This document shows positions 1,711-42,346 of a DNA stretch of 64,000 nt, piece by piece. The position numbers and the translations under genes are program-made. Position 1 is the stretch's first letter, and each line of letters starts with the position of its first letter. The notes beneath the pieces were generated by a model that searched no databases, had not been told where the DNA came from, and saw nothing but the letters and a program-made list of their open reading frames with translations. Source of the DNA: Brevundimonas diminuta 3F5N (lineage in GTDB: Bacteria > Pseudomonadota > Alphaproteobacteria > Caulobacterales > Caulobacteraceae); assembly GCF_900163625.1 (NCBI RefSeq), contig NZ_FUIE01000020.1:62001-126000 (forward strand), read 5' to 3'.

Positions 1711-2696
1711 AGTCGCCACTCCCGCGCCGCGCGCCAGGCGATCAGGGCGAACAAGGGCGCACCGACCAGGGCGGTGAAGACGCCCAGCTTCAGCTCCTGA
1801 TCCGTCGGCAGCATCCGCGCCGCCAGATCGGCGGCCACCAGCATCAAGCCGCCCGCGAGGGCCGATGGCAGAAGCAATCGCCCCGGATCGCCGCGCACCG
1901 CCGCCCGCACCAGATGCGGCGCCGCCAGACCGACGAAGCCGATGACGCCCGCCACAGCCACCGCCGCGCCCGCCGCCACGGCCGCCGCCGCCAGCGCCAG
2001 CACCCGCATTCGCCCCATCGACAGGCCCGACGCCCGCGCCGCCTCCTCGCCCAAAGTCAGCATCCGCAGGCCCGGCGACGCGCTGCGCGCCAACAGGCCG
2101 GCCACCAGAACGGCGGGCGCGACCCAGGCGACATCGATCCAGCTGCGGTTCTCCGCCGAGCCCAACAGCCAGTTCATCACCTCGGCCGAAGCGATGGGCG
2201 ACGGCGACAGATTGAAGATCAGAGCCGTCAACGCCCCCGCGAAACTGGACAGGGCCACGCCGAACAGGATCAGCGCCTCCGGCGTCCGCACCCGCGCGGC
2301 CAGGGCGATCAGCAACCCTCCGCCGACCGTGGCGCCGAACAAAGCCGAAACCTCCACCGCGCCGGGGATCGCCGCCAGCCCCAGCACGATGGCCGTCGCA
2401 GCGGCCAGGGCCGAGGTCGCTGACACGCCGAGCACGCCCGGTTCGGCCAGCGGGTTGCGCAACAGCCCCTGCATCACCGCCCCCGCCAGCCCCAAAGCCG
2501 CGCCTACGAACAGGGCGCAGATCGCTCGGGGCGCGCGCACGAGCCACAGCACCTCGCCAGGCCCTGAGCCCGGATTGCTCAAGGCCGTCATGTAATCGGC
2601 GGCGTTGAAACGGGTTTCACCCAGCGTCACCGCCAGAACGATCGCCGACACGATCGCCGCCGCCAGGCCGATATTCAGCGTCGCAGTCCGCTTCAT
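1707..2696 (-). CDS. FecCD/BtuC-family ABC transporter permease
   Basis: A 329-residue, very hydrophobic inner-membrane protein with the family features LGxxRxP-like entry (LWLVRAPRAICALFVGAALG) and the helix-turn segment GFVGLAAPHLVR that contacts the ATPase. Members form a homodimer of about ten helices per subunit that passes metal chelates from the binding protein into the cytoplasm. The start ATG (MKRTATL) overlaps the stop of the binding-protein gene in an ATGA, and its own stop overlaps the ATPase start. This implies translational coupling. The family is clear; the cargo is not. Confidence 0.92.
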   Translation of the reverse strand: MKRTATLNIGLAAAIVSAIVLAVTLGETRFNAADYMTALSNPGSGPGEVLWLVRAPRAICALFVGAALGLAGAVMQGLLRNPLAEPGVLGVSATSALAAATAIVLGLAAIPGAVEVSALFGATVGGGLLIALAARVRTPEALILFGVALSSFAGALTALIFNLSPSPIASAEVMNWLLGSAENRSWIDVAWVAPAVLVAGLLARSASPGLRMLTLGEEAARASGLSMGRMRVLALAAAAVAAGAAVAVAGVIGFVGLAAPHLVRAAVRGDPGRLLLPSALAGGLMLVAADLAARMLPTDQELKLGVFTALVGAPLFALIAWRAAREWRL

Positions 2697-3487
2697 GACG
2701 CCTGCTCGGCCAACTGCGCTGCGGCGTCCGCCGCGAACCAGGCCGGGCATGTCAGAGTCGCACCGGGCAGTTCAGCCGCCGTCCGACCTCGCATGGCGCG
2801 CTGCATCACCGGATGCCGTCCCGCCCCGCGCCAATCCGAACGCGCCAGATCGAAGAAGCCCTTCACGAAAAGAGCAGGCGGCGTCAGCAGCACGCGTTCG
2901 AGTCCCAGAGGCTGATAACCCGGCCGTTCGACCCCATTGCGAAACCCGGCCGCGCGCAGGACAGCGTCCATCAAGGAGCCAGGGCCGGAGGTGAACCCGC
3001 TGGCCGTGACATAGACGGCCTTGCGCCCTCGGCCTGCGCCTTCAGCCTTGGCCAACTGCGCCTCCATACGCTGCGTCAACGCCTTGCCTCGCTCCGGGCG
3101 CCCCAGAGCCTGAGCGACGACCTGAATGTTCGCGCGGACTCCATCCATATCCGTGGCGTCGGATATGGTGACCGTGCGGACGCCATCGCGCTCCAAGGCG
3201 GCCAGAAGGCGAGCGTCGCCGCCCCAGTAGCGCACCGCCACGTCTGGTCGAAAGCCGACAGCGGCCTCCAACGTCGGTCGCACCCGCCGATGGCCCTGGG
3301 CGTCAGCACGCAGCCAGGAATCAGGATCATCCGCTCTCGGCGACAGGCCCAACTCCGCATCGGGCGCCAGGGCGAGGACAAATTGATCGGCGCATTGATC
3401 CAGGGCCATGACCCGCAAAGGCTGGGCCGCCGCGACGTTGCTCCAACACGCCATCGCCGAAACGACGGCCGTGATCGCGATCTTCAC
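2693..3487 (-). CDS. Periplasmic substrate-binding protein of the Fe-siderophore/corrinoid ABC system
   Basis: A 264-residue protein that starts at a GTG overlapping the TetR stop and opens with a signal peptide (cut likely after WSNVAAAQ). The body matches the BtuF/FecB-type fold: an N-terminal lobe with VMALDQCADQFVLAL, the GFRPDVAVRYW segment typical of 'what binds where' lobes, and a C-terminal lobe with the long connecting helix. Binding proteins of this type deliver vitamin B12, haem or ferric siderophores to BtuC/FecD permeases. Two Cys are present (DQCADQF and LTCPAWF). The position between regulator and permease supports uptake; the ligand stays open. Confidence 0.85.
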   Translation of the reverse strand: MKIAITAVVSAMACWSNVAAAQPLRVMALDQCADQFVLALAPDAELGLSPRADDPDSWLRADAQGHRRVRPTLEAAVGFRPDVAVRYWGGDARLLAALERDGVRTVTISDATDMDGVRANIQVVAQALGRPERGKALTQRMEAQLAKAEGAGRGRKAVYVTASGFTSGPGSLMDAVLRAAGFRNGVERPGYQPLGLERVLLTPPALFVKGFFDLARSDWRGAGRHPVMQRAMRGRTAAELPGATLTCPAWFAADAAAQLAEQAS

Positions 3488-4119
3488 GAGGCGGTCAATC
3501 CTGCAAACAAGGCGTCCATCTGGGTGCGGACCAAGGTCTCACGATCCGCCCAGTCGAAATAAGGCTTGGTCGTCATGATAGAGACCAATCCATGGGCGCT
3601 GGCCCAGATGACCTGCGCCAGCGTGCGGGGATCACCTCGCAGCGCGCCTTGATCGACCGCCTCTTCGACCACGCTGACAAAGGCACGAAACAGGTCGGCC
3701 CCGCTTTGCTGCGCCACGGTCTCGGCGCCGTGGCGTGTCTGGACCTGCGGGGTCAGATAGGCCAGCCGATAGGCGTTGGGATTGGCGAAACCGAACGCGA
3801 TGTAATTCTCGACAATCCGGCGCAGCCGCGCCAAGGGAGGCGCATCCTCAGCCAGGGTCCGTTGGTGTTGCTCGGCCAGGGTGTCGAAGGCGTTGCGGCA
3901 GATCTCGTTGAGGATCTCTCCCTTGTCCGCAAAGTGCATGTAAAGCGCGGTCGACGACAGGCCCACCTCGTCAGCAATCTTGCGAATGGTGGCGCCTTCA
4001 TAGCCCCGCTCGACGAAAATACCTTCGGCCGCCGCCAGGATTTCCGCACGGCGCTCGTGCCCTTCACCCTTGGGTTTGCGTGTCGAACGCGACGATGCGG
4101 CAGGTGCGAGCGACACTCG
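3484..4119 (-). CDS. TetR/AcrR-family transcriptional regulator, first gene of the ABC uptake operon
   Basis: An N-terminal TetR helix-turn-helix domain is plain (RRAEILAAAEGIFVERGYEG, then IRKIADEVGLSSTALYMHF), followed by a TetR C-terminal ligand domain (YRLAYLTPQ, WASAHGLVSI). The start is uncertain: GTG at 4119 has GGGGAG seven bases upstream, while TTG codons at 4131 and 4167 are also in frame. Its stop overlaps the start of the binding-protein gene, so regulator and transporter are one transcript, suggesting self-regulation. A palindrome at 4203-4217 between this gene and the divergent glycosyltransferase is the obvious operator candidate. Confidence 0.88.
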   Translation of the reverse strand, partial: RVSLAPAASSRSTRKPKGEGHERRAEILAAAEGIFVERGYEGATIRKIADEVGLSSTALYMHFADKGEILNEICRNAFDTLAEQHQRTLAEDAPPLARLRRIVENYIAFGFANPNAYRLAYLTPQVQTRHGAETVAQQSGADLFRAFVSVVEEAVDQGALRGDPRTLAQVIWASAHGLVSIMTTKPYFDWADRETLVRTQMDALFAGLTAS

Positions 4120-4202
4120 AATGCTCCCCAAGTTGAACTCCCGTGTGGGGGCCAGTGATAGCCGCAAAAGCCGGCTCCGGCCAAATATATTGCTTTACAT
4201 AG

Positions 4203-4217
4203 ATGTTAGTATAACAT
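4203..4217. promoter_or_regulatory. Candidate TetR operator: perfect inverted repeat ATGTTA-GTA-TAACAT
   Basis: Six-base arms around a three-base centre form a perfect palindrome in the 122-base gap between the divergent TetR-ABC operon and the glycosyltransferase gene. The gap is AT-rich (AAATATATTGCTTTACATAG lies just before it). TetR-family proteins bind such short palindromes as dimers. The assignment to the neighbouring TetR gene is inferred from position. Confidence 0.5.
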
Positions 4218-4241
4218 TGATCTACGAACGGGAGGGCGACG

Positions 4242-5663
4242 ATGCGAAGGGGAACGGTCGCCCGCGCGGACGGCGATGCTCTGAAGTCTGCGCGCATCAC
4301 GCTGACAACCCGTCAGACGCTAGGTCTTACCCTCATCGTCACCGGCGTTTTGGCCGCCACGACAATCGCCCCTTTGTCAGGTTCTGTCGTACTTCTAAGC
4401 CTCCAGATCGGATTCATGAGCCTGGCCGCCTGGAGGCTGTTCCTGCTCTGGAACAGCCGCCTCCAGCACTTGTCCGACACGCCACAGATATGCCCGGACC
4501 CGTCGTGTCCATGGCCCCGCTATACCATTGTGTCAGCCCTGTATCAGGAGACGTCCGTCCTACCGCAACTGATCGAACGGTTGTCCGATATCGACTATCC
4601 GAGAGAACGCCTTGAGGGGTTTCTGGTGCTTGAAACGGACGACGCTGCGACGATCAAGGTTGCTCTGGACCTGCCCAGGCCCGACTGGCTTCAGGTGTTG
4701 ATCGTGCCGCCCGGCGCGCCCAAGACCAAGCCGCGCGCCCTGAACTACGCCCTGGCGCGCTGTAGCGGCGACCTGATCACCATCTATGATGCAGAAGACG
4801 ACCCCGACCCGCTGCAACTGCGCGAGGCCGCGACGCGCTTCATCTACGAAGGCGAAAGCCTGGCCTGCCTTCAGGCGCCGCTACGTATCCGTTGCAGGAA
4901 CAAAGCCAGCGCCAGCCCCTTTCTCGACCGGCAGTTCGCGGCCGAGTACGCCGCTCTGTTCGAAGTCACCCTGCCGGCCATGAGCCGCCTGGGGCTGCCC
5001 TTTCCTCTCGGCGGAACCAGCAACCATTTCCGAGTGCCTGTCTTGCGAGCGCTGGGAGGCTGGGATGCCTGGAACGTCACCGAGGACGCCGATCTGGGCT
5101 TTCGCATCTGGCGCGCCGGCTATCGGCTCGGCGTCATCCAGAGGCCCACGTATGAACCGCCGCCTGGACCCTTGCCGCTCTGGCTGCCGCAACGCACACG
5201 CTGGCTGAAAGGCTATCTGCAAACACTGGCTGTCCATACACGCTACAAAGAGGGAATGGGCTGGCGAGGCTGGGCGGCGTTGGCCGTCACCGTCGGCGCT
5301 GGCGTGGCGTCCGCCGCCATCCACGCCGCCTGCGCCGCCTGGGTGTTCAGCGTGGCCCTGACCTCTATCGTCGCGGGACGCCTGCCTCACTTTTCGCCGC
5401 AAGGCAGTATCGTTCTGATCTCCGGCGTCATTGCCGCCTGGCTTTTGAAGCACCGCGGCGCACGGCAGGCGGGCGCTTCCTATGGCCTGGGCGACATGCT
5501 GGCCTCCCTCGCCTATTGGTGCCTGCTCAGCCTGGCGTTCGCTCACGCCGCCATCCGCCTGATCTTTGAACCGCATCACTGGGACAAGACCCCGCATCAG
5601 GCTGAACCCGAACCCGATATCGCCATGATCAACGGCGCTGACGCTGGACGAGCGGCCGCCTGA
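4242..5663 (+). CDS. Membrane glycosyltransferase family 2 (processive-type, cellulose-synthase-like)
   Basis: A 473-residue GT2 enzyme. Two N-terminal membrane helices (about residues 25-75) precede a GT-A domain with the metal and nucleotide-sugar site DAEDD (from residue 183), the TED motif (Asp282) and the QxxRW motif QRTRW (residues 317-321). Three or four helices follow from about residue 345. Proteins with this plan transfer sugars from UDP-sugars at the inner membrane for exopolysaccharide or related glycan synthesis. GGAGGGCG lies four bases before the ATG. No polysaccharide genes flank it, so the product is unknown. It may share the operator with the divergent TetR operon. Confidence 0.87.
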   Translation: MRRGTVARADGDALKSARITLTTRQTLGLTLIVTGVLAATTIAPLSGSVVLLSLQIGFMSLAAWRLFLLWNSRLQHLSDTPQICPDPSCPWPRYTIVSALYQETSVLPQLIERLSDIDYPRERLEGFLVLETDDAATIKVALDLPRPDWLQVLIVPPGAPKTKPRALNYALARCSGDLITIYDAEDDPDPLQLREAATRFIYEGESLACLQAPLRIRCRNKASASPFLDRQFAAEYAALFEVTLPAMSRLGLPFPLGGTSNHFRVPVLRALGGWDAWNVTEDADLGFRIWRAGYRLGVIQRPTYEPPPGPLPLWLPQRTRWLKGYLQTLAVHTRYKEGMGWRGWAALAVTVGAGVASAAIHAACAAWVFSVALTSIVAGRLPHFSPQGSIVLISGVIAAWLLKHRGARQAGASYGLGDMLASLAYWCLLSLAFAHAAIRLIFEPHHWDKTPHQAEPEPDIAMINGADAGRAAA

Positions 5664-29721: not shown

Positions 29722-30438
29722 ATGATGACGCTTCTGGCGAGCCTGGCCCTACTGGCTGAACCCGTTCAGTGGGAGACGCGCCCTGTCGTCGAACGACATG
29801 ACTACCCGGCCCTGGCCAAGGATTTGCGGATCAACGGAACCGTCACCCTCGAGTGCGCCAACAACGAAGACGGCGCCTTGGCTCGATGCGCCGCCATGTC
29901 CGCAAACCCTGCCGACGCGGGCTTCCAGGAAGCGGCGCTGGCGATCGTGTTCCGTGGGCGCGTCGCCCAGCCCGCGAATGTCCCTTTCACGATCAAACTG
30001 CCCTTCAGCACCCTGACCGAAGGCGACGAACCGCTGCGTCAACCATGGGAAGGCCCTGAGCCTGGCCCCGAGCATATCCAGGCCGCCCAGGCTTTTACCG
30101 ACAGCTTTTATGGCGGCAGCCGCTCCGCGACCGAACGCTCGATCCGTGACTGGAAAGTCGACGAAATGCCTCCTGAGAAGGCAGCCCTTCTACGCGCCTG
30201 GATGGCCGAGCTATACCCTGACCTTGAAACCGAGAAGGCCTGGCACGCCGCAGGGGTCGCCCGCGTACTGGCACGACACGGCCTGGACTATCTGCCGACC
30301 AAGAAGCCGATCGGCTGGGATGTCTGGTACGCTCAAGTCACACAAGCTAGCCCGGAAGACCCGGCCCTGATCAGGAACGAGATGCGCCGCCGCTACTGTG
30401 CGGCGTTCGACTGCGGTTCCGGCGCGGCGTCTGACTGA
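29722..30438 (+). CDS. Secreted TonB C-terminal-like protein, third tandem paralogue
   Basis: A 238-residue protein with a short N-terminal hydrophobic leader (MMTLLASLALLAEP). RINGTVTLECANNEDG, the Cys pair, GFQEAALAIVFRG, IKLPF, PWEGPEPGPEH, an acidic helical part and MRRRYCAAFDCGS match copies one and two in order. It begins 21 bases after copy two. The last 46 bases overlap the convergent serine protease gene. A second in-frame ATG follows directly after the first. Confidence 0.72.
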   Translation: MMTLLASLALLAEPVQWETRPVVERHDYPALAKDLRINGTVTLECANNEDGALARCAAMSANPADAGFQEAALAIVFRGRVAQPANVPFTIKLPFSTLTEGDEPLRQPWEGPEPGPEHIQAAQAFTDSFYGGSRSATERSIRDWKVDEMPPEKAALLRAWMAELYPDLETEKAWHAAGVARVLARHGLDYLPTKKPIGWDVWYAQVTQASPEDPALIRNEMRRRYCAAFDCGSGAASD

Positions 30439-31299: not shown

Positions 31300-33477
31300 A
31301 TGAACCGTCGCGAACTGATCGCCTCGACCGCCGCCGTCGGCTTGGTCGCCGCCTCCCCTGCTATCGCCCGCCAGACTACCGGAGCCTCAATGTCCAAACC
31401 CACGCCGCCCGTCGCCAAGAAAGTCCCCGTCCGCATCGAGCAGCTGGGCCGGGTCCGCGTCGACGACTATCAGTGGATGAAGGACGACAACTGGCAGGCC
31501 GTGCTGCGCGATCCCTCGCTGATCAAGGCTGACGTCAAGGAGCACCTGACCGCCGAGAACGCCTATCGTGAAGCCATGATGGCCTCCACCCTGCCGCTGC
31601 AGGCCACGATGTTCGAGGAGATGAAGGGCCGCATCAAGGAGGACGACAGCTCTGTTCCCGCCGCCGACGGCCCGTGGGAATACTACGTCCGCTACAACAC
31701 CGGCGACCAGCACCCCCTCTATTGCCGCCGTCCGCGTGGCCAGAAGGACGGCGAGGTCATCCTGCTGGACTGCAACAAGCTGGCCGAGGGCAAGGCCTAT
31801 TCCGAAGTTTCCGCTACCGAGCACAGCCCCGACCACGCCCTGTTCGGCTATGCCGAGGATGCGCAGGGTTCCGAAGTCTACAAGATCTATGTGAAGGACC
31901 TGGCTACCGGCGAGGTTCTGCCCAACCCGATCGAATCGGCCAGCGCCAACTTCACCTTCTCGCCCGACAGCCAGTGGATCTTCTGGACCAACCGCGACGA
32001 CAACGGCCGCCCGGACAAGATCTTCCGCCGCCCGGCGCGCGGCGGCGAGACTGCTTTGGTCAATGCGGAAACCGACGAGGGCATGTTCCAGGGCGTCGGC
32101 CGCACCGCCGACGACGCCTTCATCGTCATCTCCATCGCCAATCAGGAAACCTCAGAAAGCCGCATCATACCGGCCGCCAACCCCACGGCGACGCCCGTAG
32201 TGGCCGAGCCGCGCCACGTCGGCCGCCTGTATGACCTCGACCACTGGGGCGACCGTTGGGTGATCCGCACCAACGCCGACGACGCCGTCGACTTCAAGGT
32301 CATGGAAGCCCCGACCAACGCCCCGGCCAAGGCTAACTGGAAGGACCTGATCCCCCACACGCCCGGCCGCTTCATCGAGGGCGTGGCTCTGGTGAAGGAC
32401 TATCTGGGCCGTCAGGAGCGCGCCGAAGCCAACACCAAGATCGTCATCCGCAACCGCGCCGGCGCCGAGCACGAGATCGCCGTGGACGAGCCCGCCTACG
32501 CCCTGTCGCTGGGCGGAGCGTCGGAGTTCGACACCACGGTCATGCGCTATGGCTACAACTCGCCGTCGACGCCGACCTCGACCTATGACTACGACCTGAA
32601 GACCCGCGAGCGCACCCTGCGCAAGGTTCAGGAAATCCCCTCGGGTCACAATCCAGCGGACTATGTGGTCGAGCGCCTGAACGCCCCGGCTTCTGACGGC
32701 GAACTGGTACCGGTGACGGTGCTGCGTCGCAAGGACACGCCGGTCGATGGTTCGGCGCCGCTGCTGCTCTACGGCTACGGCTCCTACGGCATTCCGATGG
32801 CGGCCAGTTTCGCGACCAACCGGCTGTCTCTGGTGGATCGCGGCTTCATCTACGCCATCGCCCATATCCGCGGCGGCTCGGACAAGGGCTGGAACTGGTT
32901 CCTGACCGCCCGGCGCTTCACCAAGAAAAACACCTTCACCGACTTCATCGCCGCCGCCGAACATCTGATCGCGCGCAACTACACCAAGGCCGGAAACATC
33001 GTCGCCGAGGGCCGCTCGGCCGGCGGCCTGCTGATGGGGGCCGTCACCAATATGCGGCCGGACCTGTGGGCGGGCGTGATCGGCGGCGTGCCCTTCGTCG
33101 ACGTCATCAACACCATGAGCGACACCAGCCTGCCGCTGACCCCGCCGGAATGGCCCGAATGGGGCAATCCGCTCGAGGACGCCGCCGCCTACGACTACAT
33201 GCTCAGCTACAGCCCGTACGATCAGATCGAGGCCAAGCCCTACCCGGCCCTGCTGGCGACCGGCGGCCTGTCCGACCCCCGCGTCACCTATTGGGAGCCG
33301 GAGAAGTGGGTGGCCAAGCTGCGGCCGGCCTCGACCTCGGGCAAGCCGGTGCTGCTGAAGATCAACATGGAGGCGGGCCACTTCGCCTCGTCAGGCCGGT
33401 TCGATTACCTGAAGGATATCGCCCACGACTACGCGTTCGCCGTCTGGGCGGTCGAGAAGGGCTGGGAAAAGGCGTGA
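31300..33477 (+). CDS. ptrB: Oligopeptidase B / prolyl oligopeptidase (S9A), with twin-arginine signal
   Basis: A 725-residue serine peptidase. An N-terminal Tat signal (MNRRELIASTAAVGLVAASP, cut near AIARQ) precedes the seven-bladed propeller and the alpha/beta hydrolase domain with Ser573 (EGRSAGG), Asp659 (LSDPRV) and His694 (EAGHFAS). Oligopeptidase B cuts short peptides after Lys or Arg. GGGGGAAG is a strong ribosome site for ATG 31300. A second in-frame ATG at 31390, just past the signal peptide, has GGAG five bases upstream and could give a cytoplasmic form. The stop overlaps the next start (GTGA). Confidence 0.92.
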   Translation: MNRRELIASTAAVGLVAASPAIARQTTGASMSKPTPPVAKKVPVRIEQLGRVRVDDYQWMKDDNWQAVLRDPSLIKADVKEHLTAENAYREAMMASTLPLQATMFEEMKGRIKEDDSSVPAADGPWEYYVRYNTGDQHPLYCRRPRGQKDGEVILLDCNKLAEGKAYSEVSATEHSPDHALFGYAEDAQGSEVYKIYVKDLATGEVLPNPIESASANFTFSPDSQWIFWTNRDDNGRPDKIFRRPARGGETALVNAETDEGMFQGVGRTADDAFIVISIANQETSESRIIPAANPTATPVVAEPRHVGRLYDLDHWGDRWVIRTNADDAVDFKVMEAPTNAPAKANWKDLIPHTPGRFIEGVALVKDYLGRQERAEANTKIVIRNRAGAEHEIAVDEPAYALSLGGASEFDTTVMRYGYNSPSTPTSTYDYDLKTRERTLRKVQEIPSGHNPADYVVERLNAPASDGELVPVTVLRRKDTPVDGSAPLLLYGYGSYGIPMAASFATNRLSLVDRGFIYAIAHIRGGSDKGWNWFLTARRFTKKNTFTDFIAAAEHLIARNYTKAGNIVAEGRSAGGLLMGAVTNMRPDLWAGVIGGVPFVDVINTMSDTSLPLTPPEWPEWGNPLEDAAAYDYMLSYSPYDQIEAKPYPALLATGGLSDPRVTYWEPEKWVAKLRPASTSGKPVLLKINMEAGHFASSGRFDYLKDIAHDYAFAVWAVEKGWEKA

Positions 33478-34419: not shown

Positions 34420-37416
34420 TTAGAAGCGGGCAGTCAGACCCACGAAGTAACGACGACCCAGTACATCATAGGTCGACGGGTCCGTGTTCGCCTGGATGTT
34501 CGGCGAGTACAGCGGCGGCTGCTCATCAAACAGGTTGTTGACGCCAACTCGCAGCGAAACTGCGTCATTCACGTCATAGGTTGCGCGTAGATCGAAATAC
34601 CACATCGAATCCACGCCAGTACCTGCACCACCCGTAACAGTGTTGCTATGCACCATCTCGTCAATGAAGCGAGCCGTACCCGTGACCGAGAACGGATCCA
34701 AACGCCAGCTCGTGCTAATCGTATGGCGCCATTCCGGCGTCGCCGACCCCGTGCCGGTGCCAATGGTGCCAACATAATTACGCACCGGATCCAGCGGAGT
34801 AGTCTGGGTCTCGTACTTTTCGACCCAGGTCGACAGCACGTTGAAGTCCAGCGCACCAGCGCCGCCCAGTTCGAAACCAACGCCGAAGTTGAAGTCGACG
34901 CCGCTGGTTTCCGTCATCGCTTGGTTACGCGACAGCTGAACAACATTCTGCACCGAACCATTGGCCTGGTTGCGCTCGAACAAACGACACCAATCGTTGT
35001 TCGCGTCATAGGTCGGGTTCGCGTTGTCCAGGTTGAAACAGCGCTGAACGATCGTGCCCACCCCGATCGAAGCAATAACGTCTTCGATCTTGATCGACCA
35101 ATAATCCACCGACAGATAGAGGCTATCAGCCCAACCGCCCGTGTTGAAGGGTGAACGCGCCACGAAACCAGCGGTCCAAGAGTTAGATTCCTCCGGCTTC
35201 AGGTCCGGGTTGCCGCCCGTAATGGCAGGAATCTGACCCGACCAGGTAAAGTTAGCGCCACCGGCCACAGCCGACTGCGCCTGGCACAGTTGCGTAATCT
35301 TAGCGCCGTTCGGACCATTGCGGCTGTACTCCGCAGTGGCCGGCAAGCGAACGTCACACGGATCAAGACGGTTGAAGGACGGGAAGTTATTCACCTGAGG
35401 GGCAAACAGCTCCGAAATCGTCGGCGAACGAACCGCCGTCTGATAACCACCGCGTGCGCGGAGCCAATCATTCACTTCCCACTCGAGGTTCGCCTTCCAG
35501 CTATTGGTCGTGCCCGAATGAGAATTCTCCGAAACACGATAACCCAGCGACAGCGACACATCCTTGGCGAAAGCCACATCCTTGACGACCGGAACCAGCA
35601 GTTCGGCAAAGATATCCTTCCAGTTCAGGAAGCCCGAAGTCGGCAGTTGCTGGTTAAAGCCGGCCACCAGACCAGGCTGCAACCCGCTGTCCGGACGGAA
35701 ATCAAAATCCAGTTCACGATAGCTGGCCCCGAAAGCGCCTTGAACCGGGCCGGCAGGCAACTGGAACAGATCACCGTTGACTGAGGCTTCAACCACGGAT
35801 TGCTCAACGACCGTCAGGTTCTTGGCCTCAAGGCTGACCCAAGCCGCACAGCTGGCATCAATCGGCGCGGCTCCGAACAGGTTGAGGCCATTCGGGCAAG
35901 CACCTCCAGAAAGCGCGGCTTGCTGAGCGATCGTCGGCGCCCGGAAGGCAGCGACGCGTGCATCATACGCCGCCTGGCTCTCAGTGGCGCCCTTGGCATC
36001 AATATGGCCGAGCAGTTGGCCAACACGATCACGCCGGACGTTGCCGCCTTGGATTTCGTTCAGAGACGTGCGACCATATGAAGCATAGACATCATAGGTC
36101 CAGGTGTTGGTCCGAGGCAGCGAACCCTTGGTGCCCAACAAAACCTGCCAGACGTCATGGGTGCTGAAGCCAGTACGGCCGCCCAAGTCGTTGAACCGCT
36201 TCGAGAAGGCGAATGGATCGTTCGGACGAGCGCGCGCCGCCAGGAGCGATCCCAGTTGCGATCCGATGAACGGGTTGCTGACCGCCACGTTCCAGCCCGT
36301 CGAACCGCCGGCTGGCGTCGGAGCGAGTTCCTGCTTGGCGTTATAGTTGGTGTACAGCGCCTGGACGTAAGGCTTGAAGTGGTCGTTCAGCTCATAGTTC
36401 ACGCGCGTGAACAGGTTCCAACGCTCCATCGGCAGGACCAGGATGTTGTCCGGCTCGAAGTTGTACGAGAAGATATTCGGTGCAAACGCCGTAGCGACAG
36501 CAGAGTCCGGTCCTTTGTAGCCGTACATATTGTAGACGCTGCTGGTTTCTAGACCCGTACAGAACAGGCTTCCATCCGGATTGAATCCGAATCCAGCCCA
36601 GCCGCCCGAAGCGTCGCAGTTGTTCGGACCGCCAAATAGGCCATTCACGAAACCTTGCGTCGGAGTGTTGGCACCTAGTGCAACCGAGCCGCCAGGGAAG
36701 ATAGACGTCGTTGTAGAAGCTTGCGAAGCAAAATCACGCGTGCCCTTATACATGACCTCGCGGTTGAAGTAGCTGGCGTTGAAAACCGCATTACCCTTAC
36801 CGTCGCCGAATTGGCCGCCGAAGGTAATGTCAGTGCCCCACTCCTGCCCGTCGCCTTCTTCGGTGAGACGGTATTGGGAGTCGATCTGAATGCCTTCGAA
36901 GTCATTCTTCATGATGAAGTTGACCACGCCCGACACGGCGTCCGCACCATAGGTCGAGGCCGCGCCTCCGCTGATGATCTCAACGCGATCAATCAGAGCT
37001 GCGGGAATGGTGTTGACGTCGACAGTGCCGCCGGCGGTCGAGCCCATGGGGCGACGGCCATCCATCAACACCAAGTTACGGCCCGAGCCCAGGCCACGCA
37101 GATCGATGAAGGCGCGCCCGTTCGAGCTTGGATTGTTCGACTGCGAGCTGAGACCCGCAGTCACCTGCGGGAGAGTGTTGAGATACTGTTCGACAGTGGT
37201 CGAACCGGAGTGCGTCATGTCTTCCTGTTGGACAGTCAGGATCGGGCTCTCCGAGACGGCGTCGCGTCGAGCAATACGCGAGCCCGTCACCACGACCTCA
37301 TCGACACGTGAAACCTCATCCTGCGACGCGCTCTGCGCGAACGCGGGCGCGGCGAAGCCGATAGCGGCCACCCCAGCGATCATCGTGGTCGCCAGCAATC
37401 GCTTGCGATGTTCCAT
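34420..37416 (-). CDS. TonB-dependent outer membrane receptor (first of the duplicated module)
   Basis: A 998-residue receptor. Signal peptide (MEHRKRLLATTMIAGVAAIG, cut after APAFAQ), a TonB-box-like DEVVVTGSRIARRD, the plug domain (VEQYLNTLPQVTAG, FIDLRGLGSGRNLVLMDGRR, IISGGAASTYGADAVSGVVN) and a large barrel ending in YFVGLTARF with terminal Phe. GGAGGAA 13 to 19 bases before this ATG supports the start over one seven codons upstream. The substrate is not evident; such receptors import siderophores, B12, glycans or peptides. A small secreted protein gene is divergent from it. Base composition is lower in GC than in the flanking genes. Confidence 0.93.
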   Translation of the reverse strand: MEHRKRLLATTMIAGVAAIGFAAPAFAQSASQDEVSRVDEVVVTGSRIARRDAVSESPILTVQQEDMTHSGSTTVEQYLNTLPQVTAGLSSQSNNPSSNGRAFIDLRGLGSGRNLVLMDGRRPMGSTAGGTVDVNTIPAALIDRVEIISGGAASTYGADAVSGVVNFIMKNDFEGIQIDSQYRLTEEGDGQEWGTDITFGGQFGDGKGNAVFNASYFNREVMYKGTRDFASQASTTTSIFPGGSVALGANTPTQGFVNGLFGGPNNCDASGGWAGFGFNPDGSLFCTGLETSSVYNMYGYKGPDSAVATAFAPNIFSYNFEPDNILVLPMERWNLFTRVNYELNDHFKPYVQALYTNYNAKQELAPTPAGGSTGWNVAVSNPFIGSQLGSLLAARARPNDPFAFSKRFNDLGGRTGFSTHDVWQVLLGTKGSLPRTNTWTYDVYASYGRTSLNEIQGGNVRRDRVGQLLGHIDAKGATESQAAYDARVAAFRAPTIAQQAALSGGACPNGLNLFGAAPIDASCAAWVSLEAKNLTVVEQSVVEASVNGDLFQLPAGPVQGAFGASYRELDFDFRPDSGLQPGLVAGFNQQLPTSGFLNWKDIFAELLVPVVKDVAFAKDVSLSLGYRVSENSHSGTTNSWKANLEWEVNDWLRARGGYQTAVRSPTISELFAPQVNNFPSFNRLDPCDVRLPATAEYSRNGPNGAKITQLCQAQSAVAGGANFTWSGQIPAITGGNPDLKPEESNSWTAGFVARSPFNTGGWADSLYLSVDYWSIKIEDVIASIGVGTIVQRCFNLDNANPTYDANNDWCRLFERNQANGSVQNVVQLSRNQAMTETSGVDFNFGVGFELGGAGALDFNVLSTWVEKYETQTTPLDPVRNYVGTIGTGTGSATPEWRHTISTSWRLDPFSVTGTARFIDEMVHSNTVTGGAGTGVDSMWYFDLRATYDVNDAVSLRVGVNNLFDEQPPLYSPNIQANTDPSTYDVLGRRYFVGLTARF

Positions 37417-37510
37417 GGAAATCAATTCTTCCTCCATTAAAATGAAGGAGCGCAGCGGAAAGCGGATATTCCCAAAAACGCCGACACCCCCAACCCAACC
37501 TCAATTTCTA

Positions 37511-37525
37511 ACGATTCGAAATCGT
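37511..37525. promoter_or_regulatory. Palindrome ACGATT-CGA-AATCGT in the 275-base gap between receptor and secreted protein
   Basis: A perfect six-base inverted repeat with three-base centre, about 95 bases before the receptor start. The whole gap (37417-37691) is AT-rich and holds the divergent promoters. A TTGACA-like hexamer is seen near 37645, but no matching -10 box is convincing. The palindrome is a candidate operator for both genes. Confidence 0.4.
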
Positions 37526-37691
37526 GGCTGACCTTGCATTTATCTCCATATTTGAACTCATTCATTCGTCTTTACGATATCAACGCGAGTTAGCCCTCAG
37601 CCTGTCTCAAAATCGCCACATATATAGCCAAATAGCCCAGAAATTGACACTTACAAATCAACCCTCAACTTGAAACAAGATTTCAAAAAAC

Positions 37692-38219
37692 ATGAAAATA
37701 TTGACAATTCCACCCCTTTTTCGTCCCTATTCGGCCTTTATCCTTCTCGCCCTGCTCGCGGCCGGAAGCGCCAAAGCCCAAAACACCCCCTCCGCCTTCG
37801 AAAAGTTGTCCGAATGCCAGGACCTCATCGCAAACGAACAACGACTAGCCTGTTACGACGAGCGCATGACCGAGCTCCGCGCCGCAGCAAACAACGGCGA
37901 AGTCGTAATCGTGGAGCGCGCGCAGGTTGATGCCGCCAAAAGAGCTGTATTCGGTTTCTCAACACCCAACCTTCCGGCCGTGTTCGGAGGAGAAACTATA
38001 GAAAGCTTGGAATCTACGCTCGAGCGTGCTGCCGCTGCTTCGGATGGCGCCTGGATTTTCTACCTGGCAGACGGCTCGACATGGCGGCAGATCGACAATA
38101 CGCGCGTCACTAACCCTAGGGCTCGCCAAGGGGAAGAAGTTCGCGTTCGCAAGGCCGCGCTAGGCAGCTACTTTCTCAACCTCGGCTCGAGTCGGGCCGT
38201 CCGCGTGCGACGCGAGTAA
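37692..38219 (+). CDS. Small secreted protein of unknown function, paralogue A, divergent from a TonB-dependent receptor
   Basis: A 175-residue protein with a signal peptide (cut after GSAKAQ). After it comes a Cys pair motif, LSECQDLIANEQRLACYDER, then VVIVERAQVDAAKRAVFGFS with TPNLPAVFGG, and a C-terminal beta-rich domain GAWIFYLADGSTWRQID then EVRVRKAALGSYFLN and SRAVRVRRE. The paralogue at 41804 matches in all these blocks. No enzyme motif is seen. The C-terminal domain resembles a small beta-barrel, and the protein should be periplasmic. The ribosome site is poor (ACAAGATTTC), with an AT-rich leader. Confidence 0.8.
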   Translation: MKILTIPPLFRPYSAFILLALLAAGSAKAQNTPSAFEKLSECQDLIANEQRLACYDERMTELRAAANNGEVVIVERAQVDAAKRAVFGFSTPNLPAVFGGETIESLESTLERAAAASDGAWIFYLADGSTWRQIDNTRVTNPRARQGEEVRVRKAALGSYFLNLGSSRAVRVRRE

Positions 38220-38246
38220 CTCACCAAAAGCGCCTTGAGGCGCACA

Positions 38247-38289
38247 AGAAAAAGGGGGCGATGGATAGTAAATCCTTCGCCCCCTTTCC
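38247..38289. terminator. Bidirectional terminator between paralogue A and the second receptor
   Basis: AAAGGGGGCGA (38251-38261) pairs with TCGCCCCCTTT (38277-38287), and an inner GGAT/ATCC extends the stem. A-rich bases on the left and T-rich bases on the right serve both converging transcripts. Confidence 0.88.
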
Positions 38290-38304
38290 TTATGTTATAA
38301 AGAT

Positions 38305-41300
38305 TTAGAAGTTTGCTGTAACGCCGAAGAAGAAGTAACGACCCATGGCGTTATAAAGCTGCGGGTAGGTATTATTGTTACCCGTCGTCCCCACGCTATA
38401 GGATAGAGGGGGATCGGAGTCGAAGACGTTGTTCACGCCAGCGCGCACCGAAATATTATCCCTCATCTGCCAAGTTCCGGCCAGATCGAAATAGTTCTGG
38501 GAGTCCAGAACGCGATCGATACGGTCGCTCGGCGAGTTGTTCAGGCTGCCATCCGAACCCAGCACCGCGATTTCGGCTTCACCATAGTAGCGCCAGGTGC
38601 CGTTCAGGTTCAGACCATCAATCGGGGTGTTCCAGTCAACACGGAAGCGGTGACGCCACTCGGGGTTCGGCACGCCGCACTGGTTGGCGTAGAAGCCGGC
38701 GCAGTCATACGTCGAACGGGCCAGCCCCAGACCGGTGTCGGTCTCAAGCTTGTCCAGCCAGGTGCCAACAAGGGCGAAGCCCAAGCTGCCGACACCGTTC
38801 CAGCCAAAGTCCGCCAAGTCGACGTTGTAGTTAGCTGCAACGTCGACGCCCGAAGTCTTCAGGCCGCCGATGTTGGTGTTCAGGTCCACCACGTTGCCGG
38901 TGCCGACCCAAAGCTGACCGTTAGCGTTCCGCTGGATGTTGTTACAGGCCGTCATGAAGCCGCCCTCGTAACAGGCGTCCAATGCGTTCTGCGGGCCGAC
39001 CGATGAGATCAGGTTGTCAATCTGGATGTCGAAGTAGTCGAGCGTCAGGTTGAAGCCCGGCAGGAACTCAGGCGTGAAAACCACGCCGAAAGTCAGAGTG
39101 TCCGAGCTTTCCGGCGTCAGGGTCGTCTCCCCGCCCTGCAGCACATTGTACTGACCGGCGGGGCTGCTCAGGTTGCCGCCGTCAGCTTGGCCTTGCGACA
39201 CCTGCCAGGGATTGGTGCCCACGCAGGCAGCTTGCGAGGCGGTTCCGTCCTCGTTCGGGTCGGTGAAGTCGCAGGGATCATCATCCATATCGAACAGGTT
39301 GAAACCCTGCGCGGTGAACAGTTCGATGACGTTCGGCGCACGCACAGCGCGCTGAGCGCTAGCCCGGAAACGAACCGAGGGAACAGGCGCCCAGTCGCCG
39401 CCGATCTTCCACGAATCCGTACCGCCGCCGAGGTCGTACTCCGAGTGACGATAGGCTAGGTCGAGCGACAACTGGTCAGCGAAAGCCATGCCTTCTGCGA
39501 TCGGAATCTGAGCCTCGACGAAGACGTCGTAAACTTGGTTCGCGCCATTCAAGCCCAGGGTCGGACCGCCCTGACCGGCGCCGTCGCCGCTCGAGAACGA
39601 CACGTCAGGCGTCAGATCCAGAGCGTCACGGCGATATTCGCCGCCGAAGGCCGCCTGCACGCTACGCGTCGCCCAGGGCGACTTCACGCCATAGGCGCCC
39701 AGATCGACCGTCAGCGAACCCGAAGCCACCTGCTGGGTCGTCCAGCCAGTCGCAACCAGCGGCACCTGCAAATAGTTCAGAGCCTCCTGCGACACGCCGC
39801 CCGGTTTGAAGATGTCGTAAGGGACGCAGTCGGCGTCGATGCCGGCCAGCACGGACCGGCAAACCGGCGTGTTGGTGCTGGGATCCAGCACGACGTCCAG
39901 GGCACGCGCCAAGCGGGTGTTCGAAAACTCATTGCGGTAGATGTTGGTGAACTGCGCACGCGAGTACTGGATCGACAGATCGTAGCTCCAGGCGTCATTC
40001 AGATCGCCGCGAGCGCCGATCACGCCGCGATACGACTGGAAGCGGATGTCGGACTGACGTCCGCCGCCTTCAACGTTACGCCGCCCGATGTACAACGGCA
40101 CCAGGTTGGGATCCTCCAACAAGCGGAAAGCCTCGTTGCCGCCTGGCGTGGTGGAGCCGGGAGCCGAAAGCGAGAAAGTCTTGTCGTCGTTCTCGATCAC
40201 CCAGGTATTGTAGGCGGCGGTAGCTTGCGCACCACAGCCAAGCGCTGCCGCCTGCTGTGCGTTCAGCAGCGGACTGTCGCAGTTAATGAACGACGAGCCG
40301 TCGGTGGTGCGGAAGCCGTTCTTGAACTCACCGAAGAAGTTACCCGACGGTGCGATCTGAGCGATCGTCGAGTAATCGCTATACATGAGCTGGGTGTACA
40401 CTTCGATCTTGTCGGTCACGTCGTAATGACCAAAGACCCCCAGCGTGTACCGCTCATCAGGGCGCTGGAAATAGTTGGACGGACCAAAATTATAGGCATC
40501 CGTCGCGCCAACATAGTTACGGAATCCAGCGTTATTCACCGTATAGGCGAAGCTCGGCAGCGGATTGACGTCAATGTCATCCGTAGTGGGGTCGCCGTCG
40601 GTATCGATCAGGAATTCATTGCCGCCGAAATCCGTAAACTGCCCAGGGAATGACGTACCTGAACCGCCGCAGTTGAATTCACCGGGGGGCGTGCTGGCCG
40701 CCGGCGCCGAGAGCGAACAGGCCGAGTAATCGTAGTCGCGTCCCAGAACCTTATTATTCTTCCGATAGCCGGCATACAGCGTGATGTTGCCGCGATCATC
40801 GGGGGCGTTGACGCCCATCAGCAAGTTCACTTCACGGCTGAACCCCGTGTAAACATTATCGTCGGGCAGCTGGTACTGTGATGGGTTGGAGGCGGAACGA
40901 CGCGCGATAACGTCACGCAGATTGCCTACGCCGTCATAGTCGTTGTTGTGCTGGTTGAAACCGTACTGGGCGTCGATCTCGATGCCCTCGAAGTTACGGC
41001 GCATGATGAAGTTCACAACGCCGGCGATAGCGTCCGAACCGTAGACGGCCGAAGCGCCGCCAGTCAGCACTTCAACGCGCTCGACCATCTGGCCGGGAAT
41101 CTGGTTCAGGTCAGCCGCGTCGTCCTGCGGCGAGCCGTAACCCATCCGCTTGCCGTCAATCAGCACCAGAGTGCGCGACGAGCCCAGGTTTCGCAGCGAC
41201 ACCGTCGCCGTGCCGGAAGCGCCGTTGGCGACCGTCGAGTTCTGCGCGGCGAAAGCTTGAGGCAGTTGGGTGACCAGGTCTTCAACGCGGGTTACGCCCT

Positions 41301-41526
41301 GAACGTCGATGTCTTCGCCCGTAACCTGGGTCACAGGGCTGGTGGTGGTCAGATTCGGCTGACGCAGACGCGAGCCGGTGACGACGATGTCGCTGACCTG
41401 GCTCGGCTGATCCGCCTCCGGATTCGGCGTGGTCTGAGCCGCAGCGGGGGCGGCGAAGCCCACCAGCGCAAGGCCCGCGATCATCGTCGACGCCAACAGA
41501 CGCTCACGTTTGATCTGAAAATTCAA
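38305..41526 (-). CDS. TonB-dependent outer membrane receptor (second of the duplicated module)
   Basis: A 1073-residue receptor with signal peptide ending APAAAQ, TonB-box-like SDIVVTGSRLRQPN, plug (VEDLVTQLPQAFAAQ, VSLRNLGSSRTLVLIDGKRM, VEVLTGGASAVYGSDAIAGVVN) and a barrel ending MGRYFFFGVTANF. The start is a TTG with AGGAGG seven bases upstream; no ATG lies at the right place, and the signal peptide begins directly after. Plug and signal peptide resemble the first receptor, but the barrel is about 75 residues longer and carries many Asp/Asn-rich loops. Substrate unknown. Confidence 0.92.
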   Translation of the reverse strand: MNFQIKRERLLASTMIAGLALVGFAAPAAAQTTPNPEADQPSQVSDIVVTGSRLRQPNLTTTSPVTQVTGEDIDVQGVTRVEDLVTQLPQAFAAQNSTVANGASGTATVSLRNLGSSRTLVLIDGKRMGYGSPQDDAADLNQIPGQMVERVEVLTGGASAVYGSDAIAGVVNFIMRRNFEGIEIDAQYGFNQHNNDYDGVGNLRDVIARRSASNPSQYQLPDDNVYTGFSREVNLLMGVNAPDDRGNITLYAGYRKNNKVLGRDYDYSACSLSAPAASTPPGEFNCGGSGTSFPGQFTDFGGNEFLIDTDGDPTTDDIDVNPLPSFAYTVNNAGFRNYVGATDAYNFGPSNYFQRPDERYTLGVFGHYDVTDKIEVYTQLMYSDYSTIAQIAPSGNFFGEFKNGFRTTDGSSFINCDSPLLNAQQAAALGCGAQATAAYNTWVIENDDKTFSLSAPGSTTPGGNEAFRLLEDPNLVPLYIGRRNVEGGGRQSDIRFQSYRGVIGARGDLNDAWSYDLSIQYSRAQFTNIYRNEFSNTRLARALDVVLDPSTNTPVCRSVLAGIDADCVPYDIFKPGGVSQEALNYLQVPLVATGWTTQQVASGSLTVDLGAYGVKSPWATRSVQAAFGGEYRRDALDLTPDVSFSSGDGAGQGGPTLGLNGANQVYDVFVEAQIPIAEGMAFADQLSLDLAYRHSEYDLGGGTDSWKIGGDWAPVPSVRFRASAQRAVRAPNVIELFTAQGFNLFDMDDDPCDFTDPNEDGTASQAACVGTNPWQVSQGQADGGNLSSPAGQYNVLQGGETTLTPESSDTLTFGVVFTPEFLPGFNLTLDYFDIQIDNLISSVGPQNALDACYEGGFMTACNNIQRNANGQLWVGTGNVVDLNTNIGGLKTSGVDVAANYNVDLADFGWNGVGSLGFALVGTWLDKLETDTGLGLARSTYDCAGFYANQCGVPNPEWRHRFRVDWNTPIDGLNLNGTWRYYGEAEIAVLGSDGSLNNSPSDRIDRVLDSQNYFDLAGTWQMRDNISVRAGVNNVFDSDPPLSYSVGTTGNNNTYPQLYNAMGRYFFFGVTANF

Positions 41527-41544
41527 AGCTCGTCCTCCTGAGTT

Positions 41545-41618
41545 GTGGTCGACTCCGGCGAAGTCCACCCCCACCCGTCGACCACGGATACAGCTAAGTT
41601 CCGTATCAATCGGAACTT
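41545..41618. promoter_or_regulatory. Two inverted repeats upstream of the second receptor
   Basis: GTGGTCGAC (41545-41553) is repeated in reverse at 41577-41585 with 23 bases between, directly before the receptor ribosome site. AAGTTCCG (41596-41603) and CGGAACTT (41611-41618) form a second perfect 8-base repeat with a 7-base centre. A third, imperfect repeat (AAATTGC 41688-41694 / GCAATTT 41709-41715) lies nearer the secreted-protein gene. These lie in the 277-base divergent gap 41527-41803. They may be operators or leader hairpins. Confidence 0.45.
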
Positions 41619-41803
41619 CATTCGGCATCCGATCAGAAGGTTAGGCATGGAGCACGACTACAGACCACGCAAATTACATGGGCGATAAAATTGCGCCGCA
41701 GCTATGTCGCAATTTCGCCACGCAAGGACTCCTAGTGACACGCAATCATCTCGCATGCGATGGTACTCACTCTTCAAACTCACAATTTCGGAATGTGCCA
41801 AAA

Positions 41804-42346
41804 ATGCGAACGATGTTGACCTTCTGCGTTGCAATGATCGGCACATTCGGCCTCACCTGCGACACATTGGCGCAAGTTCAATCCTCCGAGCGTTCGGCGC
41901 TCCTGAGCGCGCTCTCGGGATGTCGCGCCATGCCGGACGCCGCCGCTCGCCTGAACTGTTTCGACAGAACGGCGGATGCTTTGGATACGGCGGAACGCCA
42001 GGGCGACCTTGTGATTATGGAGCGCCAACAGATTCGCGAAGCGCGGCGCCAGCTCTTCGGCTTCAGCGCCCCGGCCCTCCCCACGCTCTTCGGCCGTGGC
42101 GGCGGGGGGGCCGATACTGAGCCAGAGGTCGATTCCGTTGAAACGACCTTGGTGAGCGCCGGTCAGGATCATGAGGGTAAGTGGACTTTCCGCCTGGCCG
42201 ATGGCGGTGAGTGGCGACAGATCGATTCAGCGCCTGTCCGCTTCCAGAATCGAAACGGCACGGAAGTCAGGGTGCGCCGCGCAGCCCTGGGCAGCTATCT
42301 GTTGACCGCCGGCAAGAGCCGCGCCGTTCGTGTCAAACGACAGTAA
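41804..42346 (+). CDS. Small secreted protein of unknown function, paralogue B, divergent from a TonB-dependent receptor
   Basis: A 180-residue protein with signal peptide (MRTMLTFCVAMIGTFGLTCD, cut after TLAQ). The Cys motif LSGCRAMPDAAARLNCFDR, LVIMERQQIREARRQLFGFS with APALPTLFGRG, and the C-terminal WTFRLADGGEWRQID, EVRVRRAALGSYLL and SRAVRVKRQ parallel paralogue A. A Gly-rich hinge (RGGGGA) is specific to this copy. The start is the ATG that begins a normal signal peptide; the frame is open 42 codons further but reads as the intergenic region. Confidence 0.8.
   Translation: MRTMLTFCVAMIGTFGLTCDTLAQVQSSERSALLSALSGCRAMPDAAARLNCFDRTADALDTAERQGDLVIMERQQIREARRQLFGFSAPALPTLFGRGGGGADTEPEVDSVETTLVSAGQDHEGKWTFRLADGGEWRQIDSAPVRFQNRNGTEVRVRRAALGSYLLTAGKSRAVRVKRQ

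Follow-up and report, generated by a model that had tools for sequence, protein, structure and literature searches.

Genes for a family of small, exported-looking proteins, here called SP, are almost certainly linked to genes of TonB-dependent receptors (TBDRs) or of peptide importers in Caulobacteraceae and other alphaproteobacteria. The DNA analyzed, referred to as the window, is a stretch of 64,000 nucleotides from Brevundimonas diminuta 3F5N (contig NZ_FUIE01000020.1, positions 62,001 to 126,000). It holds two SP genes, SP1 and SP2, each on the plus strand and divergent from a TBDR gene on the minus strand. The original prediction, made from the sequence of the window, had described this module as occurring twice in tandem with gaps of 275 and 277 bases. 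The layout and the gaps were reproduced with starts chosen by eye, and the motifs quoted as common to both small proteins are present (46% identity over 145 aa, E 8e-39). The two modules do stand side by side and, judged from their sequences, are paralogous. A recent tandem duplication of the whole module was ruled out, since the two receptors are 29% identical and fall into different supported subfamilies.

SP Genes Face TonB-Dependent Receptors

The neighborhood of SP was analyzed in 100 Caulobacteraceae regions from 91 of the 130 other matching genomes, plus the window, which together contain 108 SPs. A divergent TBDR was present within 5 kb on the 5′ side of 94 of them, 91 within 2.2 kb, a distance at which about 40 receptors scattered randomly over 3.25 Mb would give 1.35%. 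The spacing was up to 600 bases in 54 cases, 600–2200 in 37 and 2200–5000 in 3. Two of the remaining SPs had a same-strand receptor and 12 had none; the set includes short contigs (L111 and L117) and one locus, L108, whose two SPs share one receptor. In the loci of a wider genome scan, which come partly from the same genomes so that the sets overlap, 73 of 82 SPs had a divergent receptor within 5 kb and three of the nine misses were at contig ends. The same was observed for 10 of the 11 Sphingomonadales SPs.

In Brevundimonas, SP was detected in 42 of 61 genomes (45 copies), and 40 of these copies had a divergent receptor match within 1.5 kb: 25 of the type of receptor 2 (P0004), 14 of the type of receptor 1 (P0003) and one, in G711, a weak P0004 match. 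Among the misses, SP and receptor matches lie on separate contigs in G716, G724, and G727, a partial match lies 2.2 kb away in G720, and the match overlaps SP in G717. P0004-type receptors were found in 28 of the 42 SP-positive and 3 of the 19 SP-negative genomes (Fisher p 2.8e-4, uncorrected for phylogeny). In G735, both modules are adjacent as in the window, with the P0004-type pair inverted and placed on the opposite side of the P0003-type pair; every receptor is still opposite an SP, and SP and receptor are therefore read as moving as a unit.

A constant receptor partnership had been predicted, in which the small protein might bind the ligand or the receptor plug, and a survey of neighbors in Caulobacterales had been proposed. 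That survey, extended here to nearby groups, showed that the pairing is not limited to the genome of the window and that, in the groups near it, SP genes are not scattered without receptors. The constancy held for these groups but not beyond them. For the 43 SPs of other Caulobacterales, 15 divergent and 5 same-strand TBDRs were found within 5 kb on the 5′ side, and 23 SPs had none; for the 22 SPs of other alphaproteobacteria, the figures were 2, 4, and 16. These regions were selected from order and class matches.

Passive hitchhiking, in which the genes are neighbors through shared descent with no functional link, would account for the wider synteny of related species, such as the metH-like and acyl-CoA ligase genes around the pair. 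It is highly unlikely, because SP and TBDR persist while the outer neighbors vary, two receptor subfamilies are involved, one pair is inverted in G735, and same-strand TBDR–SP pairs are found in other lineages (L142, L146, L148, and L180–L182). In one of these, L146 (1386–8864; a different alphaproteobacterial family), the order is receptor–SP–receptor–SP on one strand, an operon-like tandem doubling with a weak match (E 7e-5) for the second SP.

Peptide Importers and Modifying Enzymes Are Recurrent Neighbors

The second recurrent neighbor of SP was an oligopeptide ABC importer, so that a receptor as the sole partner proved too narrow. When neighbor clusters were counted over 161 sources, OppA (SBP_bac_5) clusters were present in 52 and OppB/OppC in 53, in any arrangement. 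An OppA-cluster gene was divergent on the 5′ side of SP in 49 sources (21 Caulobacteraceae, 24 other Caulobacterales, and 4 other), and OppB/OppC were convergent on the 3′ side in 52. Sampled neighbors passed the Pfam cut-offs as SBP_bac_5, OppC-type permease and oligo_HPY ATPase; the labels OppA, OppB/C, OppD/F, and S9 denote clusters, with one or few members of each checked. In four loci from other orders or families (L136, L139, L147, and L150), two to four copies of OppA lie divergent to SP, and genes for an OppD/F-type ATPase, checked in L136, and a permease are found on the other side of SP. In another Caulobacterales family, the SP gene is doubled in tandem beside OppA-cluster genes (L168, 8906–10695; L185, 8462–10040), and no receptor match was found in either fetched region.

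SP could also be primarily a part of the Opp importer, the TBDR having been added later in two groups that lost or relocated Opp, Caulobacteraceae and Sphingomonadales. As would be expected from such an origin, a divergent OppA-cluster gene adjoins SP in 24 of the 40 sources from other Caulobacterales and in 4 of the 20 from other alphaproteobacteria, the latter being the four loci with multiple OppA copies. We consider it unlikely, given the same-strand TBDR–SP pairs of other lineages and the Brevundimonas and Sphingomonadales loci of the wider scan, which are paired with a TBDR and have no Opp-profile match in the fetched stretch.

Additionally, an S9 prolyl oligopeptidase recurs in the window, in L047 and beside OppA in L153–L155 (Pfam-checked in L154); the S9 protein of the window belongs to the same cluster as those adjoining OppA and SP in the last three loci. 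Another S9 type is found in L046 and L165.

Enzymes of other kinds were also detected. In 16 Caulobacteraceae loci, receptor and SP are separated by a gene for a 2OG-Fe(II) oxygenase on the same strand as SP (Pfam-checked in L115; 2OG4 in L115 and L253). In Sphingomonadales and some Phenylobacterium, genes for a tetratricopeptide-repeat (TPR) sulfotransferase, an Asp/Asn hydroxylase or a TPR-2OG oxygenase occur near receptor and SP, either after the receptor (L221, L222, L261, and L271) or beyond SP (L228, L247, and L271). Their labels are home-made cluster profiles, some of which overlap Opp open reading frames (ORFs) on the map; the members whose identity was checked with Pfam are those of L053, L059, L066, L068, L221, L222, L228, L247, L261, and L271. 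The same three kinds of enzyme cluster with TonB receptors in L066, L068, L221, L222, and L261 (Pfam-checked) and, by cluster label only, in L113 and L252.

The presence of these enzymes near receptor and SP would fit a role of SP as their target or regulator, that is, a modified secreted protein sensed via the receptor. This is very unlikely, as the conservation of SP is that of a folded protein with two domains and no such enzymes were seen at the window locus.

Distribution of SP

With SP1 as query, 131 of 199 Caulobacteraceae genomes matched, representing 17 of 22 genera. With A1, a 53-row SP alignment, matches were obtained in 128 of 150 Caulobacterales genomes (31 of 31 genera), 20 of 385 genomes of the class sample and 55 of 398 of the phylum sample. 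In the wider genome scan, the best 80 of 190 loci belong to Brevundimonas, Phenylobacterium, Caulobacter, unclassified alphaproteobacteria and, in 11 cases, Sphingomonadales, an order assignment that was checked for Chakrabartia, Glacieibacterium, Hephaestia, Tsuneonella, Sphingosinicella, and Rhizorhabdus.

The Partner Receptors Belong to Several Subfamilies

Both receptors of the window (about 1000 aa each) pass the Pfam cut-offs for Plug (PF07715) and barrel (PF00593). The genome of the window has 41 barrel matches, about 40 receptors, and two SPs. The best-scoring relative of receptor 1 elsewhere in this genome (G000:C84:27365-30220) was read through one in-frame TAG.

A receptor tree was built from 203 receptors, of which 90 were left after thinning and 58 were tagged as partners, a tag that undercounts because some receptors tagged as non-partner are divergent receptors beyond 2.5 kb. 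A single clade of partner receptors was ruled out; the partners are scattered across the class of about 1000 aa. The similarity between SPs correlated with that between receptors (0.49, 96 pairs), a value that shared ancestry alone can yield, and the deep branches of the SP tree were poorly resolved (two nodes with a support of 45).

Sequence and Predicted Structure of SP

No Pfam or NCBIfam match above cut-off was obtained for SP1 or SP2; a weak NCBIfam ketoacyl-synthase match (E 0.0015) on the over-long SP2 ORF was taken as spurious. The residues C20, C32, G47, F65, G66, W117, and R159 (numbered after the first row of A1) are invariant in the alignment. The N-termini resemble signal peptides, as judged by eye, and SP is probably located in the periplasm, where the two invariant cysteines would form a disulfide.

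The AlphaFold2 model of SP2 with A1 (pLDDT 86.6, pTM 0.51) has an N-terminal helical hairpin whose two helices carry C20 and C32, a third helix immediately ahead of the invariant F65-G66, a low-confidence linker, and then a six-strand barrel, for which a pLDDT of 89.7 was reached when modeled by itself. Foldseek and VIA-align searches with the full SP and with the isolated barrel gave nothing at E ≤ 0.001 and nothing at Z ≥ 8; the hairpin scored a Z of at most 6.4 and the barrel at most 5.6, its best match being to ribosomal S4e-type barrels. The best match in a sequence search for a solved relative had an E of 0.3 and was unconvincing. The absence of a match to this modeled structure does not prove a new fold.

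The two invariant cysteines and the flexible two-domain build would suit a periplasmic assembly or quality-control factor, which aids large TBDRs, and perhaps OppA-type proteins, in folding or in arrival at the outer membrane with no contact with the substrate. SP also accompanies several receptor subfamilies, as a general helper would. Such a function appears improbable, because about 40 receptors stand against two SPs in the genome of the window, and at many SP loci Opp genes are present while the nearest 5 kb contain no TBDR.

Comparison With Known Systems

TBDRs with dedicated partner proteins are a known kind of system, as in SusC/SusD and RagA/RagB, the latter a peptide importer. SP resembles these partners in being of exported type and encoded together with the receptor. 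SusD and RagB are surface lipoproteins of about 500 aa encoded on the strand of the receptor, whereas SP has about 150 aa in its mature form, a divergent gene, no lipobox by eye, and another size and predicted fold. SP was not assigned to the SusD/RagB type, as SP1 has 175 aa and no SusD-type Pfam match. Regarding the Opp/Dpp importers (SBP_bac_5, BPD_transp_1, and oligo_HPY), we know of no SP-like gene in textbook Opp operons; such importers adjoin SP at many loci in Caulobacterales and at some in other alphaproteobacteria, but not at the window locus.

A weak likeness to VasI/TagO, associated with type VI secretion (PF11319 and TIGR03360), was found in the hairpin part of SP, at the N-terminal cysteine pair ‘C...RLxCYD’. 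PF11319 was matched by 46 of the 53 A1 members at E ≤ 0.1 (best 5e-5). Membership was rejected, as SP2 reached 15.3 bits against a PF11319 cut-off of 26.5, and SP1 and SP2 reached 14.5 and 12.9 against a TIGR03360 cut-off of 124.2; the match of both covers only an N-terminal stretch of about 25–35 profile positions. No type VI genes were found among the scanned SP neighbors, most neighbors lying outside the scan.

No description of SP or of its pairing with TBDRs was found in the full-text literature, whose coverage mostly leaves out subscription papers, nor in passages of PMC7142613, PMC3400609, and PMC3751524. The literature searched likewise gave no account of the SP family, of its divergent layout, or of its alternation among receptor, Opp genes, and TPR-type modifying enzymes.

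Organization of the Window Locus

The features of the locus are listed in Table 1. The ATG of receptor 1 was picked by eye, guided by a GGAGGA site and by the signal sequence; its longest ORF extends to 37437. A TTG preceded by AGGAGGA was chosen for receptor 2, whose longest ATG ORF extends to 41628, and the longest ORF of SP2 begins at 41678. The lengths of both intergenic regions rest on these choices because the starts were read by eye. Promoters and terminators numbered 4 against 2.5 and 7 against 8.7 expected in shuffles; the promoter scan did not outperform the shuffles, and no conclusion on regulation is drawn from these counts. Near both receptors, an exported-looking protein with a match to the TonB C-terminal domain (PF03544) is encoded at 29722–30438.

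Table 1. Features of the SP locus in the window (positions are those of the window).
Feature	Position	Strand	Remarks
Prolyl oligopeptidase (S9)	31300..33477	+	Context only; Pfam S9_N and S9
Receptor 1 (P0003), predicted TBDR, 998 aa	34420..37416	-	Pfam Plug and TonB_dep_Rec_b-barrel above cut-off
Divergent intergenic region 1, 275 bases, GC 0.42	37417..37691		Presumed common control region
SP1 (P0001), 175 aa, predicted exported	37692..38219	+	SP family profile match E 3e-51
Receptor 2 (P0004), predicted TBDR	38305..41526	-	Pfam Plug and barrel above cut-off
Divergent intergenic region 2, 277 bases, GC 0.52	41527..41803		Presumed common control region
SP2 (P0002), predicted exported	41804..42346	+	Likely ATG 41804; AlphaFold model pLDDT 86.6

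Proposed Role of SP

From the observed linkage we infer a substrate and a mechanism. The recurrent receptor and peptide-importer neighbors suggest that SP fills a gap in a pathway for the uptake of a nutrient, probably a peptide. The reading preferred here, which we put forward tentatively, is that SP may be a periplasmic accessory protein of TBDR-driven nutrient uptake, most likely of oligopeptides or peptide-like compounds. For the substrate class taken separately, the case for a peptide or peptide-like compound is evenly balanced, and a role of SP in hand-off or receptor contact is possible though rather doubtful.

SP would be exported via its signal peptide and would fold into the helical hairpin with the cysteine pair, the flexible linker and the small beta-barrel. 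The receptor, or else the OppA-type binding protein, would probably be produced along with SP, because both genes of a pair appear to be controlled from one shared divergent region. The most likely site of action of SP would be the periplasm directly beneath the outer membrane, either on the periplasmic face of the receptor or on the way from the receptor to the binding protein; there it might help to pass or hold the substrate ahead of import across the inner membrane.

Several observations weigh against this role. In Caulobacteraceae, 14 of the 108 SPs are without a divergent TBDR within 5 kb, including the full-length Brevundimonas loci L047 and L048. Outside this family, 39 of 65 SPs have no TBDR on either strand within 5 kb on the 5′ side, and the partner is therefore not always a receptor. 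The neighborhood may in part reflect shared descent. Opp-cluster genes were found in one of the 25 Brevundimonas sources (L073) and not at the window locus, the one SBP_bac_5 protein of that genome being encoded on another contig (C81). Moreover, the partner receptors do not form one clade, which makes a single substrate class for all of them uncertain. Finally, inheritance of the pairs is not strictly joint: SP1 has its best scores with the SPs of P0004-type modules, whereas receptor 1 is nearest to a different receptor subfamily.

An unlikely but broader possibility is a class of TBDR uptake or signaling systems not described before, made up of a receptor, SP as its dedicated two-domain partner in the periplasm, and interchangeable back ends for importing a peptide ligand and modifying it chemically. 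The back ends would be OppABC, or the TPR-sulfotransferase with Asp/Asn hydroxylase and 2OG oxygenase, and SP would be the common periplasmic adaptor linking any receptor of the class to its back end.

Bacteria like Brevundimonas carry dozens of TBDRs, mostly of undefined substrate. A dedicated exported partner marks a subset of them and, together with the Opp genes and S9 peptidases of related loci, leads to a testable prediction of peptide uptake. If SP acts as an accessory protein of this uptake, it would be a candidate for explaining how substrates cross the periplasm once past the TBDR.

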